In this document: piece after piece, positions 408-8,079 of the stretch
Position numbering within the stretch: position 1 is the first letter of the stretch
Layout: every line of letters starts with the position of its first letter
NCBI GenBank assembly: GCA_903904765.1
Contig: CAIVEA010000772.1
Coordinates: 1 to 8,079 of the forward strand
DNA length: 8,079 nt
Direction: 5' to 3'
Origin: an uncultured Chloroflexota bacterium
Lineage (GTDB): Bacteria; Chloroflexota; Anaerolineae; Aggregatilineales; Phototrophicaceae
Made by a program: the position numbers and the translations under genes
Notes under the pieces: model-generated
What the model was told of the DNA's origin: nothing
The model's input: only the letters and a program-made list of their open reading frames with translations
Database searches by the model: none

Positions 408-584
408 GATGTTCCCCTCTCTACTCTGCCTCTATCTTCACCTTATGCCCGTTTAGGGCTGCGCGGGGAGTGACAACCATCACCCTTTCATGCGCCATTT
501 GTGCTATTGCTCACCCCTTACTCAGATAGCCGTTTTAGACTCACAGACTATAAGGCAGTAGAGATCAAGCACAAGGGGGCAAAA
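408..584. promoter_or_regulatory. Divergent intergenic region with ribosome binding sites for both flanking genes
   Basis: This 177-base stretch separates two divergently oriented genes and must carry both promoters if each is transcribed on its own. On the plus strand TATAAG at 549-554 is a plausible -10 about 30 bases before the ATG at 585, but no good -35 lies at normal spacing. The plus-strand Shine-Dalgarno AAGGGGG is at 573-579. On the minus strand the Shine-Dalgarno GAGAGGGG lies at 414-421 and no convincing promoter was found. There is no strong operator-like palindrome. Confidence 0.35.
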
Positions 585-1298
585 ATGCGCGCGATACGGG
601 TTTCGGGCGGGATCATACTGGCGCTGGCGCTGCTGCTGGCGTTTCCGGTGGCGGCGCATGATCCGTCTATCGAGGAGGAGGATTGGGGCGGATTCGATGC
701 GCCTTATCAGACCGCCGATGCGACGGTTTCGTATGCGCTGTACGGCTATCTGGACGAGGCTGATGTGGATGTGTTCACGCTGGATTTCCCCGAAGCCGAC
801 ATGCTGTTGCGTGCCGAACTATTGACCCCGGTATGCGGAGAGCATTACGCCGACTTCTACCCGCAGATGGTGATTTTCGCGCCAGCAGCGGACGGTGTGA
901 CCCCGATTGAAGTGGCGCTGCCTTTCGATGTGCCGGAGGGACTTGTCCCCATTTACACCTCGGCTGCGGCACGACCCGAAGCCACGCCCGAACCGGAAGG
1001 CGAACGCCCGACCTTTGTTGAACCCATCGGCGGCACAACCTTCTACGAGTCCTTGCGAACGGATTTGACGGTGACAACAGCCGGACGCTACTGGGTGGCG
1101 GTGTATAACCCGGATGGACAAACGGGTGATTATGCGCTGGCGACGGGCTACCGCGAGGTGTTCAACTCGTCTCCGGTACAGGTGATGCAAGCAGTGGCGG
1201 CCATCCGTAGCGGGGAATGGTTGCACCGCCGCTGCGATCTATCACCGGATGACCCGGATGCGGTGATCGAGCATGACCAACACGCGGACGGCGGGTGA
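585..1298 (+). CDS. Secreted PPC-like beta-domain protein, function unknown
   Basis: The 237-residue product starts with a typical Sec signal peptide: basic MRAIR, a hydrophobic core (about 8-21), then a signal peptidase I-like site VAA before H25. The start at ATG 585 is preferred over an in-frame GTG at 501, because 585 has AAGGGGG at optimal spacing and puts the signal peptide at the N terminus. The mature part begins acidic, then has alternating hydrophobic strands (YALYGYLDEADVDVFTLDF, about 50-68) and, near the C terminus, GRYWVAVYNPDGQTGDYAL (about 167-185). This resembles pre-peptidase C-terminal (PPC) or related jelly-roll domains of exported proteins. A Pro/Glu-rich insert (about 129-146) separates the two halves. 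The only cysteines, C84 and C217, could form a disulfide. No catalytic motif is seen. The gene converges on the downstream minus-strand gene with a 25-base gap. Confidence 0.8.
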   Translation: MRAIRVSGGIILALALLLAFPVAAHDPSIEEEDWGGFDAPYQTADATVSYALYGYLDEADVDVFTLDFPEADMLLRAELLTPVCGEHYADFYPQMVIFAPAADGVTPIEVALPFDVPEGLVPIYTSAAARPEATPEPEGERPTFVEPIGGTTFYESLRTDLTVTTAGRYWVAVYNPDGQTGDYALATGYREVFNSSPVQVMQAVAAIRSGEWLHRRCDLSPDDPDAVIEHDQHADGG

Positions 1299-1307
1299 GG
1301 TGTGCGC

Positions 1308-1349
1308 GGCTGGTTCAGAAGCCTTACGAATGCAGCTTGTGAACCAGCC
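1308..1349. terminator. Shared stem-loop between convergent genes
   Basis: GGCTGGTTCA at 1308-1317 is perfectly complementary to TGAACCAGCC at 1340-1349. After one G-G mismatch (1318/1339) the stem continues with AAGC 1319-1322 and GCTT 1335-1338, leaving a 12-base loop: a 15-position stem with one mismatch. The stop codon of the minus-strand gene (1326-1324) lies in the loop, and the right arm encodes its last residues. No T-tract follows on either strand, so it would work as a bidirectional 3' end structure or RNA stabiliser rather than a textbook intrinsic terminator. Confidence 0.55.
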
Positions 1350-3012
1350 CCTCCACAAAATCGTCGTCAATGAACGAGCCTTTTTGCAGCAGCATTTGAA
1401 TCTGCCCGCCGAGTCGCGCTTTTTCCTTCACGGTCAGGTCTTTGGCAGTCACGACCACAATCGGGATGGCGGCTGTTTGCGGGTCGGCTTTGAGCAGGTC
1501 AATCATTTTGAAACCGTCTATATCAGGCATCATCAGGTCGCTAATCACCAGATCGGGATGCGTGTCGCGGATGATCGCCAGCCCCGCCGCGCCGTTGTGC
1601 GCCAGATGCACCTCATAGCTGCCCCGCGCCTGCAAAATGCGCTGAATCAGCCGCGCCGCGTCCGGGTTGTCTTCCACTACGACGATGCGCTGCACCTGTG
1701 AGTCCATCTGTTCCAGCGCCGAGAGCAGCCCTTCTTCGGTCACGGGTTGAGCGTAATCTGGCTGTGCGGGCAGTTCGACGGTTTGCTGCCAGTGGTCGCC
1801 CAGAATTTGGCTCTCCACGCTCACGGTATGACCGGAACAGTTGATGACCACTACCTCATCCGGCTTGATGACCCCTTCGCGCACCATGCGAATCAGTCCG
1901 GCGAAGGTGATGGCCGTCGCGGGTTCTACCGAGATGCCCTCGGTACGAGCCAGCAGGAGGCTGGTTTTGAAGGCTTCCTCATCCGTCGCGGAGGTGAAAT
2001 GCCCCCCGTTCTGGCGCACATAATCCACCAGCAGTTCATACGCCCGCCCCGGATTGCCTGTCGCCAGCGTGGTGATGAGCGTAGACGGGTTCTCGATGGG
2101 CGTGGCGATGCGCTGCCCGCGCTGGAACGCCTCCACCATTGGCGCACAGCCCGCCGCCTGTATCGCGCCGATGGCTGGCAGCTTGCTCACCAGCCCGAAG
2201 CGTTTCATCTCCTGAAAGCCCTTGCCCACGCCAATCGGCCCCATGCCGCCGCTGACGGCCTGCAAGAACCAGTCCGGCGCACGCCAGCGTTGACCGTCTT
2301 CTAACTCATGCCCCAACTGCTCCGCGATTTCGTAGGCCATCGTTTTCATGGCTTCGATAGCTGCCACGCTTTTGATGCCCCTGTCGAGGAACAGCCCTTT
2401 GCTGCGGGCGAACCGTGCCGCTAACTCTTTGGTCTGGTCATACGTGCCGGTGATTTTAATGATTTCCGCGCCGTACAGCGCCGCCTCGCGCATTTTCTCG
2501 GCGGGTGTCAGGCTGGGGAAGAACGCCCACAGCTTGATTCCGGCACGGGCGCAATAGGCGGCATAGGCAATCGCCACATTCCCCGTGCTGGCGACCACCA
2601 GTTCATCCACGCCCATCTCGCGCAGCGCGGAGATCGCCACCGTCGCCTGACGGTCTTTGAAGCTGGCGGTTGGCCCCTGCCGTTCATCCTTGATGTACAG
2701 ATGTTTTAAGCCGAGGCTGGCGGCGAGGGCGTTGGATTTGATGAGGGGTGTGCCGCCTTCGCCCATGCTGATGATATTGGCCGAATCGGTGACGGGCAGC
2801 ACTTCGCGGTAACGCCACAGGGTAGGCCGCCGCCGCCGGATGACCTCCAGCCAGTCGCCCACATGAATGCGCCCCAGATCGTAACGCGCTTCGAGGATGA
2901 CTTCGCCGCATTGTGGGCAGCCCGCAAGGGTACGGTCTAACGGCAGACGGGTATGACAGTTAATACATTCCAGTTCAATTTGCGGCGCAATACGTTGCGC
3001 GGGATTCGGCAT
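1324..3012 (-). CDS. Threonine synthase-type PLP enzyme fused to a C-terminal response-regulator receiver domain
   Basis: 562 residues. Residues 1-40 carry a zinc-ribbon-like pair CINC (C16, C19) and CPQC (C32, C35), as in some threonine synthases. Residues about 75-405 are a fold-type II PLP enzyme: GEGGTPL (84-90), KDERQGPTASFKDR with the predicted Schiff-base lysine K119, the substrate/cofactor loop STGN (142-145), a glycine-rich SGGMGPIG (254-261) and NCSGHT (391-396) near the end. Threonine synthase converts O-phospho-L-homoserine to L-threonine and phosphate in the cytosol. A linker of about 35 residues leads to a full receiver domain (442-562): acidic pair E446/D447, phosphoacceptor D492 in SDLMMPDIDG, T522 and K544, with the 30- and 22-residue spacings of CheY. 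Ordinary threonine synthases of this class lack a receiver. The ATG at 3012 has GGAG 6 bases upstream. The gene follows the hybrid kinase after 183 bases in the same direction. A related PLP lyase activity is possible, but the motifs favour threonine synthase. The name thrC is withheld because of the fusion. Confidence 0.88.
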   Translation of the reverse strand: MPNPAQRIAPQIELECINCHTRLPLDRTLAGCPQCGEVILEARYDLGRIHVGDWLEVIRRRRPTLWRYREVLPVTDSANIISMGEGGTPLIKSNALAASLGLKHLYIKDERQGPTASFKDRQATVAISALREMGVDELVVASTGNVAIAYAAYCARAGIKLWAFFPSLTPAEKMREAALYGAEIIKITGTYDQTKELAARFARSKGLFLDRGIKSVAAIEAMKTMAYEIAEQLGHELEDGQRWRAPDWFLQAVSGGMGPIGVGKGFQEMKRFGLVSKLPAIGAIQAAGCAPMVEAFQRGQRIATPIENPSTLITTLATGNPGRAYELLVDYVRQNGGHFTSATDEEAFKTSLLLARTEGISVEPATAITFAGLIRMVREGVIKPDEVVVINCSGHTVSVESQILGDHWQQTVELPAQPDYAQPVTEEGLLSALEQMDSQVQRIVVVEDNPDAARLIQRILQARGSYEVHLAHNGAAGLAIIRDTHPDLVISDLMMPDIDGFKMIDLLKADPQTAAIPIVVVTAKDLTVKEKARLGGQIQMLLQKGSFIDDDFVEGLVHKLHS

Positions 3013-3043
3013 GACCCACTCCAGCAGCGATTCGGTAATTCAC

Positions 3044-3070
3044 AGTATAACATTTCGTCCATCAGGACGA
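3044..3070 (-). promoter_or_regulatory. Extended -10 promoter and operator-like palindrome for the threonine synthase-receiver gene
   Basis: On the minus strand TGTTATACT (3052-3044) matches the extended -10 pattern TGnTATAAT with one mismatch in the hexamer. It would start a transcript near 3037, giving a leader of about 25 bases before the ATG at 3012. No good -35 is seen, as is usual for extended -10 promoters. Immediately upstream, a perfect inverted repeat (TCGTCC 3055-3060, GGACGA 3065-3070, spacer ATCA) covers the spacer and -35 region, where a repressor or activator dimer could bind. This suggests the gene can be expressed apart from the kinase gene. Confidence 0.45.
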
Positions 3071-3109
3071 TTACAATCCATTTGTATTGGTTCTCAAACC
3101 GGCATCACA

Positions 3110-3187
3110 TTTCGTAGGGACACCCAACGGGGCGGCCACCTGCCCCTGTTGCTTCCGGCGGATATGCCGTTGCACGTTCCTACGAAA
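3110..3187. repeat. MITE-like imperfect palindromic element after the kinase gene
   Basis: TTTCGTAGG at 3110-3118 is the exact reverse complement of CCTACGAAA at 3179-3187; extended to 12 positions (3110-3121 and 3176-3187) the arms match at 11. Inside are smaller stems GGGGC/GCCCC (3129-3133, 3142-3146) and CGGC/GCCG (3156-3159, 3166-3169). The element starts 8 bases after the kinase stop codon. Short elements with CGTAGGGAC-type ends resemble the non-coding palindromes common between genes of Chloroflexota and cyanobacteria. It could also end or stabilise the kinase transcript; no T-tract follows. Confidence 0.5.
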
Positions 3188-3195
3188 CCCCTGCG

Positions 3196-6100
3196 TCACT
3201 CATTGCCAGCCGTGTTGAGATGTTGCTTTAATGTGGCGAAGAAACGCTCATGCTGCCCCTGCTGCAAATCGTTTTTGTAGATCACTTGCAGTTTCGCCAG
3301 CCGCTGTTGTTCTTCCTCGTTCAGCGTGTCCGCCGTGACCACGATCACTGGAATCCGTGCTGTTTCCGGGTTGGAGCGCAGTTCGCCCAGCACGGCGAAC
3401 CCGTCCATATCCGGCATTCGCAGATCGAGGATGACCAGATCGGGACGGCGGCGTGCCACCAGCGACACCCCTTCGAGGCCACTGTTGGCGGCAAATATGC
3501 GGAACTGCCCGGCTTGATCGAGCATGGACTGAATCAGGCGCGTGCTTTCCGGCTGGTCGTCAATAATCAGGATGCGTTCGGTGCGCGAGTCAGCTTCGGC
3601 GCGGCGCACAAGGTCTTGAATCTGTTCTGGCAGGAAAGGGCGCTGCAAGAAGGCGAACGCGCCTGCCGCCGCCGCCCGCTGCGACTCATCCATCAGACCG
3701 ATCACGATCACCGGAATATCGCGGGTATCCTCGCGCTGGTGCAACCGCCCCAGCATATCCCATCCGGTGCCGTTGCTGAACTCCGCGCTCATGATGATGA
3801 GCGTGGGGCGCAAACCACTCGCCATCGCTTCCGCTTCCAGCGAAATTGAGGCCGAGAAGATGTCAAAGCCTTCACGCTGGAGCGCCCGCCGCACGATGTC
3901 CACGCGCTCCGGCTCGTCCTCGATGAGCAGGATTTGCCGCCGCACCGTGATGGGCGTGGCGACGGGCATACTCAGCGTCCGCGCCTTCGGCACTTCGGGC
4001 GCGTGGGTGATGGTCGGCGGCTTGGGCGGCGGGTCGAAAGTGGGCATGGTCAGCGGCCCGGTGACAGGTTTGCGGATTTCCATCGTCTGACGCGGGTCTT
4101 CGGCGGTCAGCGGCGGCTCGTCTTCGCTTTCCGGCGGGGCGGGCGGCTTCAGCGGGATAGTCACACTGAAGGTCGAACCGGCATTTACCACCGAATGCAC
4201 CAGCATTTGCCCGCCCTGCATCTCGATCAGCGATTTGGCGATGGGCAAACCGAGGCCAGTGCCGCCGACAGTGCGCGTCAGCGACGAGTCCACCTGCCGG
4301 AAGGCTTCAAACAGCATTGGGATGTCTTTCTCCGCGATGCCAATGCCCGTATCCTGCACATCCACGCGCACCATCGTCTCGCCGCTGCGGGCGTGCGTTT
4401 CGGTGTAAGCGCGGATGGTCACGCTGCCTTGCTGCGTGAACTTGGCGGCGTTGGAGACAAGGTTGAGCAGCACCTGTCGCACACGCATTTCGTCACCGTA
4501 GCATGGAGGCAAACCGGATGCCATCTCCAGTTTCATCTCCACCGATTTGTCTTTCACAAGGCCGATGCCGATGGAGCGCACGCCCTCCAACACGGGCTTG
4601 ATGTCGAAATAGTCGCTGTGGATGGTCATCTTGCCGGAACTGACCTTTGCCTGATCGAGGATGTCGTTAATCAGACCCAGCAGATGCGTGCCGCTGGTGT
4701 GGATGGTACTCAAATCCTGTTCCTGCATCTCGGTCAGGGGGCCATCCACGCCCTTCAGGATGATGCGGCTGAAGCCGATGATCGAGTTCAGCGGGGTACG
4801 CAGTTCGTGGCTCATGTTGGCGAGGAAATCGCTTTTGAGCCGATCCAGTTCGCGCAACTGAAGGTTTTGTTCCTGCACCTGTTCCAGCAGGTGGGCGCTC
4901 TGGATGATAGCCGACAAGCTGTTGGTGAGCGTTTGCAGCAAGCGCATTGTGTCGTCATTGAACGCGCCGATGCGGTTGTCCTCCACCACCACCACGCCCA
5001 CTGCCTGCGCGCCGCTGGTGAGGGGTGTGGCAGCGGTAACGGTGGCTTCCGGGTGAATCGGCATGTAGCCGCGCTCGGTTATCAGGTCAATCCGGCGCGG
5101 TTGCTGGTCGCGCACCACACGGCTGAGGACGTTGGCGGTCGTGTCCAGATCAATTTCCGAAAGCTCGCTCAACGGCTGGTCAGAGCCGGCTAGGGCGATG
5201 GCTTGCAGCAGCTTGTGTTTCCCGCCGTCTTGATCTTCGTATTCTTCGATCAGATACAGCGCGGCAACCAGCGCCCCCAGCGACTCGCGCACACGGGCAG
5301 CCACTTCTTGCAGCGCCTCCGCCAGCGATTTATCCGTTGCGGCGGCAGCTTGCGTCGCTTCAAACAGGAAGCTCATATCGCGGACACGATGCTGCGTTTG
5401 CTCGAACAGGCGGGCGTTGTCCAGCGCCACCGAGATTTGCGCGGCCAGCGTGGTCAGCACGTCCACATCTTCATTGCTGAAGGCGTTGGGCGTATTGGAC
5501 TGCACATCCAGCGCCCCCACGACTTGATCTTTGAGGATGAGGGGCAGCGCCATTTCGGAGCGCGTCAGCGGCAGGTACATATTCGGGCGGTGAACCACCC
5601 GCGCATCGGCGGTATCCAGCGCAATCGCGGGTTCAGCGGTGGCCGTCACCGTCCCGATGACCGATTTCGAGCCTTTCGCCAATCGGTGATTGTTCGCCAG
5701 CAGTTGCCGTCCGGCCTCGCCCGTGCTGGCGCGTAGCACCGCGTATTCGTTGGCGACATCCATCAGGAACACCTGCACATGGTCGTAGCCGAAGGCATCG
5801 CGGATCATCACCACGATTTGCGGCAGCAGTTCGTTCAGGTCGAGGATCGAACTGGCGATCTGGCTGACCTGCGCCGAAGTCGCCAATTGGCGGGCGCGGC
5901 GTTCGGTTTGCTGAATCAGTCGTCCGGCTTCTATCGAGAGCGAGGCCTGTTCCATGAACGACTGGAAAATGCGGCGGTCACGGTCGGTGTGCTTGTATGG
6001 CTGATCGGACGACAGCCACAGCGCACCAATGCGCCGCGAACCTGCACGCAACGGCAGCACCGTCAGCGAACGGGCGTTAATGCTGCTCAAGCCCATCTGT

Positions 6101-8079
6101 TCCAGCGCATCCAACGTTTGATCGGTTTCGGCATCGTCCAACGTGAGCAGATCGGATGTGGCGATCAAGCGCCATGCCGGGAATTGTTCGGCGGTCAGCG
6201 TCAGCCCTTCGAGAGCGAGGCTTTCTGACCCCTCTCGTTGCCAGTGCGAGATGACCAACAGCGAGTCCAGTTCGGCGCTGCGGCTGCCGGGGACTGCCAT
6301 CACCACCTGCGTGATGTGCGGCTGATTCAGTTGCGTCACCACCGCCTGAACCACCTGCTGCGGTTCGGTGGCGTTCGCCAGCACACGGCTGATCTCGTAC
6401 AGTGTTTGCGCTTCCTGAAAGGCCATCTGCGTGCTGGTGAACAGGTTACGATTGTCCAGCGCCACCGCCGCGTTATCCGACAGCGTACTCAAGAAACGGG
6501 CGTTGTCCGGTGTGACCGGGGTAGGACGGTCATACGTCACCGCAATCCAACCCAGCAGCGCGTCACGGGTACGCATCGGCACGGTGATGACCGCCAGCAC
6601 GCCACTTTGCACCAGTACTTGACGGGTTTCAGCATCCAGTTCGGCCTGTTCGATGTCCGGGTAGACAGCAATATCATCGCCGAACAAGATGCGCGGCAGG
6701 TTGAAACCGGATAGGTCTATCATCGCCCGCGTCGGCAATAGGTCGCCGTTGGATGGGTCGCGCAGGACAATATAAGCTTCCATCGGCTCGAGGACGATCA
6801 ACGGCGCAATAGTGGCTTCCAGCGCCGAGTCGAGATCGGGCGCAGTGGCAAGGTTGCGCGTGGTTTCGTACAACGCCACTTGATCGCGTAGCGTATTTTG
6901 CAGCGTATTTTCCATCGTTCGCAGCGTTTTGATGTCCTGAAACGCCGCTACAATCGCATCAATTTCGCCGCGTGCGTTGCGGACGGGCGCAGCGTTCAGC
7001 AGCAGGTCGGTCTGCGACCCATCGGCATACACCACCGACAGGTCATCGTTAACGGTCACTTCGTCCTGCACCGCCCGGAAGATGGCGAGGTCTTCCGCCG
7101 GATACGGCACAACCGTACCCGTGCGAATCAGGTTATAGGCCGCCACATCAAAGGGCGTGGTCAGGTCAATTGGCCTGCCGAGTAGCCACTCGGCCTGCGC
7201 GTTGGCCTGCACCGGTTGGAAGGTTTGCGCGTCCAGCACCACCACGCCCGTCGGCATGGTTTCGAGGATCGAGCGCAGGTAGGCGCGTTCTTCTTCGGCG
7301 GCGCGGAAGAGGCGACGGTTATCTACCGCCACCGCCAACTGTGCCGTCAGGGTGCGGACGAGTTGTTCATCGCGTTCGTCCAGATCAGCGCGATCCAGAC
7401 TGCGCCCGACCAGTAACGCCCCGGCCACATGATCCCCCACGCGAATTGGCGTGGTGATGTGCTTGCCCACTTCAGCGATAGCTGTGCTGTTCCAGTATCG
7501 GAAGGCCGGATAGCGGACGGGATCGTTGACCAGCAGCAGCGTATTCTGGCGGGCGGCATCCACCAGCGAATGTTCGCCCGTTTGCAGGTTATAAACCAGA
7601 GCAGTGGTATCGTCCGTGCCGGAAGCCGAACGGCGGGCGATCACCCGCAGCACATCCGGGTTTTCCTCGTCTACCAGCGCCAGCACCCAGCGGTCAATCT
7701 GGGCGGGTTCGGCCACACGCTCGAATACTTCACTGATGGCTTGATCGAATTGTCCACTCACCCGCGTCGCTAACTGACCGACTTCCGCCAGCGCCAGCGC
7801 CCGCTGTGCTTCGGATTGCGCCGCGTCGAACAGCAGGCGGTTGTCAATCGCCACGCCCGCCTGATCCATCAGGGCACTGAAGGCGCGGCCTTCGCCATCG
7901 CTGAACTCTCGCGGTTGGCTGAACTCGATCATCAGCAGGCCGCGCCACTGACCGCGCACGCTGACCGGAACCAGCACGACCGAGCGTGTATCCAGCCGCC
8001 CGAAGAAAGACCGCAGCGAGTCATCTAACCGCCGTTCGCGGCTGACATCAGTAATCATTTGCACGCGGCTGGGTTCGAG
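3196..8079 (-). CDS. Multi-GAF/PAS hybrid sensor histidine kinase with two C-terminal receivers (5' end missing)
   Basis: The frame is open to the right edge, so the start is outside the window; the GTG at 8064 and ATG at 8058 are internal, since the first residues already lie inside a GAF domain. Numbering from the GTG (1622 residues): partial GAF to about 80; GAF about 96-255; PAS about 262-380; GAFs about 395-545, 550-718, 725-890 and 895-1060, most ending in a VALDNRxLF-like helix; coiled-coil linker; HisKA with SHELRTPLNSIIGF, phosphorylated histidine H1086; HATPase_c with N box NLVSNAAKFT (N1201, N1205), DTGIGI (D1238) and GGTGLGLPIA (1267-1276). A proline-rich linker (1307-1375) leads to receiver 1 (about 1377-1490), where S1426 replaces the phosphoacceptor Asp, and receiver 2 (about 1497-1618), with D1502/D1503, D1547, T1577 and K1597. 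No transmembrane segment is visible. C1188 is the only cysteine, so the visible GAFs cannot attach a bilin through Cys. Ligands are unknown. It likely senses a cytosolic cue and passes phosphate to its own receiver and perhaps to the receiver on the downstream enzyme. Confidence 0.95.
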   Translation of the reverse strand, partial: LEPSRVQMITDVSRERRLDDSLRSFFGRLDTRSVVLVPVSVRGQWRGLLMIEFSQPREFSDGEGRAFSALMDQAGVAIDNRLLFDAAQSEAQRALALAEVGQLATRVSGQFDQAISEVFERVAEPAQIDRWVLALVDEENPDVLRVIARRSASGTDDTTALVYNLQTGEHSLVDAARQNTLLLVNDPVRYPAFRYWNSTAIAEVGKHITTPIRVGDHVAGALLVGRSLDRADLDERDEQLVRTLTAQLAVAVDNRRLFRAAEEERAYLRSILETMPTGVVVLDAQTFQPVQANAQAEWLLGRPIDLTTPFDVAAYNLIRTGTVVPYPAEDLAIFRAVQDEVTVNDDLSVVYADGSQTDLLLNAAPVRNARGEIDAIVAAFQDIKTLRTMENTLQNTLRDQVALYETTRNLATAPDLDSALEATIAPLIVLEPMEAYIVLRDPSNGDLLPTRAMIDLSGFNLPRILFGDDIAVYPDIEQAELDAETRQVLVQSGVLAVITVPMRTRDALLGWIAVTYDRPTPVTPDNARFLSTLSDNAAVALDNRNLFTSTQMAFQEAQTLYEISRVLANATEPQQVVQAVVTQLNQPHITQVVMAVPGSRSAELDSLLVISHWQREGSESLALEGLTLTAEQFPAWRLIATSDLLTLDDAETDQTLDALEQMGLSSINARSLTVLPLRAGSRRIGALWLSSDQPYKHTDRDRRIFQSFMEQASLSIEAGRLIQQTERRARQLATSAQVSQIASSILDLNELLPQIVVMIRDAFGYDHVQVFLMDVANEYAVLRASTGEAGRQLLANNHRLAKGSKSVIGTVTATAEPAIALDTADARVVHRPNMYLPLTRSEMALPLILKDQVVGALDVQSNTPNAFSNEDVDVLTTLAAQISVALDNARLFEQTQHRVRDMSFLFEATQAAAATDKSLAEALQEVAARVRESLGALVAALYLIEEYEDQDGGKHKLLQAIALAGSDQPLSELSEIDLDTTANVLSRVVRDQQPRRIDLITERGYMPIHPEATVTAATPLTSGAQAVGVVVVEDNRIGAFNDDTMRLLQTLTNSLSAIIQSAHLLEQVQEQNLQLRELDRLKSDFLANMSHELRTPLNSIIGFSRIILKGVDGPLTEMQEQDLSTIHTSGTHLLGLINDILDQAKVSSGKMTIHSDYFDIKPVLEGVRSIGIGLVKDKSVEMKLEMASGLPPCYGDEMRVRQVLLNLVSNAAKFTQQGSVTIRAYTETHARSGETMVRVDVQDTGIGIAEKDIPMLFEAFRQVDSSLTRTVGGTGLGLPIAKSLIEMQGGQMLVHSVVNAGSTFSVTIPLKPPAPPESEDEPPLTAEDPRQTMEIRKPVTGPLTMPTFDPPPKPPTITHAPEVPKARTLSMPVATPITVRRQILLIEDEPERVDIVRRALQREGFDIFSASISLEAEAMASGLRPTLIIMSAEFSNGTGWDMLGRLHQREDTRDIPVIVIGLMDESQRAAAAGAFAFLQRPFLPEQIQDLVRRAEADSRTERILIIDDQPESTRLIQSMLDQAGQFRIFAANSGLEGVSLVARRRPDLVILDLRMPDMDGFAVLGELRSNPETARIPVIVVTADTLNEEEQQRLAKLQVIYKNDLQQGQHERFFATLKQHLNTAGNE

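Follow-up and report, generated by a model that had tools for sequence, protein, structure and literature searches.

We propose that a gene on the minus strand of an 8,079-nucleotide stretch of uncultured Chloroflexota DNA (contig CAIVEA010000772.1, henceforth the window) probably encodes an enzymatic response regulator, in which phosphorylation of Asp492 by a histidine kinase would alter a pyridoxal 5'-phosphate (PLP)-binding output domain whose substrate is probably other than O-phosphohomoserine. The gene product joins a threonine synthase (ThrC)-like domain of the PALP family to a C-terminal receiver (REC). The proposal draws on features read from sequence, namely a conserved fusion that keeps its PLP and receiver residues intact, its linkage in operons, an altered substrate motif and a separate threonine synthase in relatives. 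The family is real and conserved, and is apparently an undescribed subfamily of enzymatic response regulators.

The fusion gene and its conservation

The fusion is encoded by one uninterrupted open reading frame (ORF) of 562 amino acids (aa), from ATG to stop (3012..1324, minus strand), while the plus-strand frame over 1324..3012 is interrupted by stops. A zinc ribbon is followed by a fold-type-II PLP domain, a flexible linker and the receiver, and both PALP (residues 81–392) and Response_reg (residues 443–528) scored above their Pfam gathering scores. The single-frame fusion had been proposed in a sequence-only reading of this DNA, made without database searches, and is borne out. Its features are:

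1324..3012, minus strand: ThrC-like PALP domain fused to a C-terminal receiver, 562 aa (ORF, Pfam, protein search)
2908..2967, minus strand: N-terminal zinc-ribbon cysteines C16, C19, C32 and C35 (all four Cys in 81/81 aligned members)
1837..2772, minus strand: PALP (fold-type-II PLP) domain, residues 81–392 (Pfam PF00291, E 1.2e-71)
2656..2658, minus strand: K119 in SFKDRQ, predicted PLP Schiff-base lysine (Lys in 81/81 aligned members)
2341..2391, minus strand: residues 208–224, FLDRGIKSVAAIEAMKT; matching solved threonine synthases carry NSxNxxRxEGQKT at the same place
2230..2256, minus strand: residues 253–261, VSGGMGPIG; canonical threonine synthases have VGNAGN or GGNLGN at this point of the alignment
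1693..1824, minus strand: linker, residues 397–440, partly disordered in the structural model (predicted local distance difference test score <50 over 407–433)
1333..1692, minus strand: receiver domain, residues 441–560 (Pfam PF00072, E 4.2e-18)
1537..1539, minus strand: D492, predicted phosphoacceptor Asp (Asp in 81/81 aligned members and 360/360 listed proteins)

The fusion has the fold-type-II PALP domain and PLP lysine of a threonine synthase, and the top solved-structure matches of this domain were threonine synthases and one cysteate synthase. SFKDRQ was found in 351 and SGGxGP in 354 of the 360 listed family proteins, and STGN (residues 142–145) was kept in 81/81 aligned members. The stretch at residues 253–261 is presumably the PLP-phosphate loop. 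The receiver carries the DD, D, T/S and K residues of a response regulator (E447/D448, D492, T522 and K544), which were kept in 80–81 of the 81 aligned members. The sequence-only reading had placed the acidic pair at E446/D447; its assignments of K119, STGN 142–145, D492, T522 and K544 were correct, and the zinc-ribbon cysteines that it noted lie at positions 16/19/32/35.

The 360 listed proteins are the best 120 from each of three protein searches and include the window protein and one query. In the first search 7,999 candidates were scored, and the best 120, the window's own protein among them, all contained PALP and a receiver at identities of at least 71%. Searches with Herpetosiphon-like and ThrC-REC-REC queries likewise returned both domains in 120/120 and 120/120 of the best matches. 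The survey of PALP plus Response_reg architecture suggested by the sequence-only reading found both domains in 360/360 listed proteins, and the taxonomic spread that it had asked about extends at least over the classes Anaerolineae and Chloroflexia, with Herpetosiphon giganteus, Anaerolinea thermolimosa (strain IMO-1) and Aggregatilinea lenta as named hosts. Two of its grounds for doubt, a merger of two genes and absence of the architecture from relatives, were not realized: a separate metagenome-assembled genome contig holds the nearest relative, with 87% identity across 99%, and the fusion recurs in all 360 proteins. The fusion is a conserved family and no assembly join.

A second sample of 80 loci, the best 80 of 137 relatives confirmed in genome contigs, was gathered through two peptide patterns, VSGGMGPI and GNPGRAYE. 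In the aligned loci these stretches are thus conserved partly by construction; the 360 listed proteins were chosen otherwise. Two of the contigs, L034 and L011, bear the labels Pleurocapsa minor and Bacteroidetes; their copies of the gene are 67% and 76% identical, and both are probably misbinned Chloroflexota DNA. A longer member with an N-terminal extension was observed in a 1157-codon open frame of L109 (6672–9110, minus strand).

Among 301 genomes from the phylum of A. thermolimosa (Chloroflexota), 34 contained a full-length member, giving 43 matches in total, all of them fused and each reaching positions 554–559 of 559. A PALP-only profile recovered the same 43 (566–720 bits, open frames of at least 551 aa), and the clade was thus never seen unfused in this sample. 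Two of the PALP-only matches, G268 and G048, run across a TAG that goes unreported in the full-length search. Below the 43, the best remaining match scored 304 bits in a 455-aa frame, and no unfused close relative was found among these Chloroflexota genomes, for each of which no more than 4 or 5 candidates were scored.

Histidine kinase and operon context

A large kinase gene, overlooked in the sequence-only reading, lies 183 bp upstream of the fusion in the window:

3196..8079, minus strand: hybrid histidine kinase with multiple GAF domains and HisKA-HATPase-REC1-REC2, truncated at the window end
3214..3585, minus strand: kinase REC2, phosphorylation residues intact
3634..3942, minus strand: kinase REC1, Ser at the phospho-Asp position (3787–3789)

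The phospho-Asp position of REC1 was Asp in 46 and Ser in 4 of 50 copies, which indicates a degenerate receiver in a few members. Response regulators are usually, though not universally, co-encoded with a histidine kinase, and this was found here: a same-strand GAF-rich kinase lies directly upstream of the fusion in 57/80 loci, with a gap of at most 20 bp or an overlap in 39 of the 57 (start codons picked mechanically). Using a kinase-core query, 56 of the 80 loci showed a kinase within 600 bp upstream, 51 within 2.5 kb downstream and 70 on either side. As a control, a kinase core was located directly upstream within 600 bp for 48/605 other genes compared to 56/80 fusions; the control genes, of at least 150 aa and from the same loci, include the operon's own downstream genes.

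A frequent gene order is HAMP-GAF receptor, giant GAF kinase, fusion, REC-HisKA-HATPase protein and EamA transporter. Across the 80 loci the receptor cluster recurred in 41, the kinase in 55, the REC-HisKA protein in 54 and the transporter in 54, the Pfam names being taken from one representative of each cluster. The transporter was found downstream of the fusion in 45/62 loci having at least 4 kb of downstream sequence. Genes for the REC-HisKA protein and EamA are absent beside the fusion in the window and in its nearest relative, L001.

Two further sub-families share the signalling context. A ThrC-like match in a 689–783 aa frame is also present in 13 of 20 genomes picked by hand from the 80 loci (a non-random sample), and all 8 of these 13 that were retrieved (L081, L082, L083, L093, L094, L095, L099 and L100) proved to be PALP-REC-REC proteins. 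Their loci have a GAF kinase upstream (7/8), a short receiver downstream (7/8) and a GNAT acetyltransferase downstream (5/8, flanks of 1.5–2.3 kb). A third type (L111–L117 and L125) combines kinase, fusion and short receiver in 8/8 loci. L111–L113 are Herpetosiphon-like, the best protein match of the L113 copy (96% identical) being named H. giganteus. Some 5.9 kb upstream of the fusion these three carry a GNAT gene, which was not seen in the other five third-type loci. Downstream of the fusion and short receiver, a standalone PALP protein is encoded in L114 (8958–10226), L115 (5453–6697; PRK08197-type, 577.6 bits) and L116 (5803–7029), and is a possible enzyme partner of the fusion.

In a 62-row receiver tree, kinase REC1 branched away from all other receivers (99/100), and a second group (99/100) united the REC-HisKA protein with the short receivers encoded downstream. 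Neither group took in the fusion receivers, kinase REC2 or the two receivers of the double form, which branched in no firm order, and the tree, built on few columns, gave no decision on a REC2 origin of the fusion receiver.

An amino-acid dCache sensor in the kinase was considered and found no support: the pattern R-x-W/F-Y/F, itself crude, occurred within the first 420 residues of 6/45 kinases longer than 2000 aa. Of three kinases scanned with dCache_1 (cut-off 45), only the Herpetosiphon-like one passed, L018 reaching 25.1 bits and L117 giving no match. Membrane stretches were indicated by crude hydropathy in 4/5 kinases, with none in L080.

Function of the output domain

Threonine synthase is probably wrong as the function of the fusion, as judged from a motif, a second gene and a tree. 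NSxNxxRxEGxK was found in 0/360 members, compared to each of the five threonine synthases that the solved-structure comparison matched; these five, less distant than other solved threonine synthases, form the whole reference. In Thermus threonine synthase N154, S155 and R160 presumably hold the substrate phosphate, and the motif count is independent of this assignment. A separate standalone protein with the motif was encoded in 20/20 genomes checked. A tree of PALP domains separated the fused members from 17 unfused relatives with support of 100/100 and a stem of 2.11; its unfused rows come from a few genomes and include three long branches. Control of threonine production, the target named in the sequence-only reading, was rejected as the leading reading on the motif count and the separate protein. 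Its broader claim of phospho-control or scaffolding stands as a sound inference, because a PLP enzyme-like domain and an intact C-terminal receiver are conserved across the clade and their gene shows linkage to a histidine kinase gene.

Mean pairwise identity was highest in PALP (0.72), followed by REC (0.60) and the linker (0.48). The ratio of nonsynonymous to synonymous substitution rates between the window and L001 (one pair) was 0.057 for PALP, 0.215 for REC and 0.175 for the linker, and both domains look to be under purifying selection between these two sequences. The high conservation and low ratio of PALP favor a functional PLP domain over a relic.

The PLP domain could alternatively be non-catalytic, a small-molecule sensor or scaffold that the receiver couples to the kinase network, which we regard as somewhat unlikely. 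The replaced motif, the flexible tether and the usual placement in signalling operons are consistent with it, and aminotransferase-like domains act as sensors in MocR regulators. However, the PLP lysine and STGN are kept in every aligned member and PALP is more conserved than REC, so that constraint on the active-site core exceeds a scaffold's needs, although a ligand sensor could need the same constraint.

A true threonine synthase under phospho-control, as first suggested, is quite improbable. In its favor, the window protein scored 192.7 bits against the TIGR00260 threonine synthase cut-off of 167.1, which 17 of 20 single-REC members exceeded while 3 fell under it. None of the 13 long (689–783 aa) paralogues passed that cut-off, however, and with NF006050 (PRK08197 threonine synthase, cut-off 303) the window protein stayed below at 293.3 and two distant members at 234.5 and 258.1. 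The replaced motif, the separate motif-bearing protein and the tree split also count against it. The cysteate synthase model TIGR03844 (cut-off 324.9) gave 126.9 bits for the window protein. Some threonine synthases also deaminate threonine, according to PMC12172450, and threonine deamination is a possible activity of the fusion.

It is very improbable that the receiver merely gives the kinase a docking tag or a phosphate sink, with the PLP domain left unregulated; the linker is flexible and the kinase has its own receivers, as such a role would suggest, but none of the 43 genome members or 360 listed proteins lacks the fusion, and in two sub-families short receivers encoded downstream could already be sinks. 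Joining of two genes by assembly error or frameshift has negligible probability and was rejected, being refuted by the identical architecture in 360/360 proteins and the three named species among the hosts.

Several observations weigh against an enzymatic response regulator with a new substrate. Besides the TIGR00260 scores of the single-REC members, the receiver is under less constraint than PALP, and the structural model places the receiver in no fixed contact with the PLP domain, although a single-chain model of this kind cannot show a switched or dimeric state. A different gene lies upstream in 22/80 loci and a contig edge in 1 more, and no same-strand kinase was found nearby in 10/80, several of them near a contig end. 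A nearby kinase was found for 0/2 loci of a 628-aa form (L110 and L124), and the PALP-REC-REC locus L093 has no upstream kinase.

An enzymatic response regulator is nevertheless the reading we prefer. A PLP-binding, threonine-synthase-like output domain would be tethered by a flexible linker to the receiver, and the co-encoded GAF-rich kinase would phosphorylate D492, either directly or via its own terminal receiver. Phosphorylation would then alter how active the PLP domain is or how it assembles; this domain is probably a catalyst whose substrate differs from O-phosphohomoserine. The EamA transporter of the commonest operons may move the product or substrate.

The window also holds a convergent gene (501–1298, plus strand) ending 25 bp from the fusion stop, whose 265-aa product has a hydrophobic stretch near the N terminus and gave no Pfam or NCBIfam match. 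Promoter and terminator signals in 1200–3400 were not above those of shuffled sequences, and a tRNA scan returned nothing of use.

Comparison with known systems

Compared to threonine synthases (1uim, 2d1f, 2zsj, 6cgq and 1e5x), the fusion has an added receiver, has the NSxNxxRxEGQK and GNxGN motifs replaced and coexists with a canonical ThrC in the 20 genomes checked. It lies far below the model cut-off for cysteate synthase (CapA2, 9k3c), to which the receiver does not align. PRK08197-type standalone proteins share its N-terminal part and PALP domain, and NF006050 is its best-scoring NCBIfam model; the fusion nonetheless falls below that cut-off, and the standalone proteins lie across the tree split. 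MocR/GabR regulators similarly recruit a PLP enzyme fold into a regulatory protein, but the fold is an aminotransferase of type I, joined to a DNA-binding domain and without a receiver.

The sequence-only reading knew of no described system of this type. That is too broad for receivers on standard metabolic enzymes, a class that PMC5847659 describes as known in bacteria and archaea and that includes the archaeal KaiC-REC and glycosyltransferase-REC proteins. As in the fusion, a metabolic-type domain is placed under signal control by a receiver, which sometimes follows the enzyme (KaiC-REC). The Chloroflexota fusion differs in its fold-type-II PLP output, in its spread over at least two classes (Anaerolineae and Chloroflexia) as opposed to the family or genus level reported in that paper for the archaeal proteins, and in usually adjoining a large GAF kinase. 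The claim holds for a PLP-enzyme version, in that no description of a PLP-enzyme response regulator was found among the matches listed in the open-licence literature, at the level of titles and abstract openings; two Galperin papers cited in PMC5847659 may list rare cases.

The family extends the output domains of two-component signalling to a PLP enzyme fold, and a large conserved family has been hidden under a threonine synthase label that is likely wrong there. Because kinase, receiver and enzyme adjoin and named isolates are among the hosts, it offers a system for probing direct phospho-switching of an amino-acid-type enzyme. More speculatively, and in our estimation unlikely, the operons may represent an undescribed Chloroflexota two-component class in which phosphorylation leads a PLP enzyme to make or remove an amino-acid-derived compound, coupled to EamA export or import in the single-REC form or to GNAT acetylation in some ThrC-REC-REC and Herpetosiphon-like loci. 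Were this so, a signal would enter and a small molecule would leave, with the step of gene regulation bypassed.
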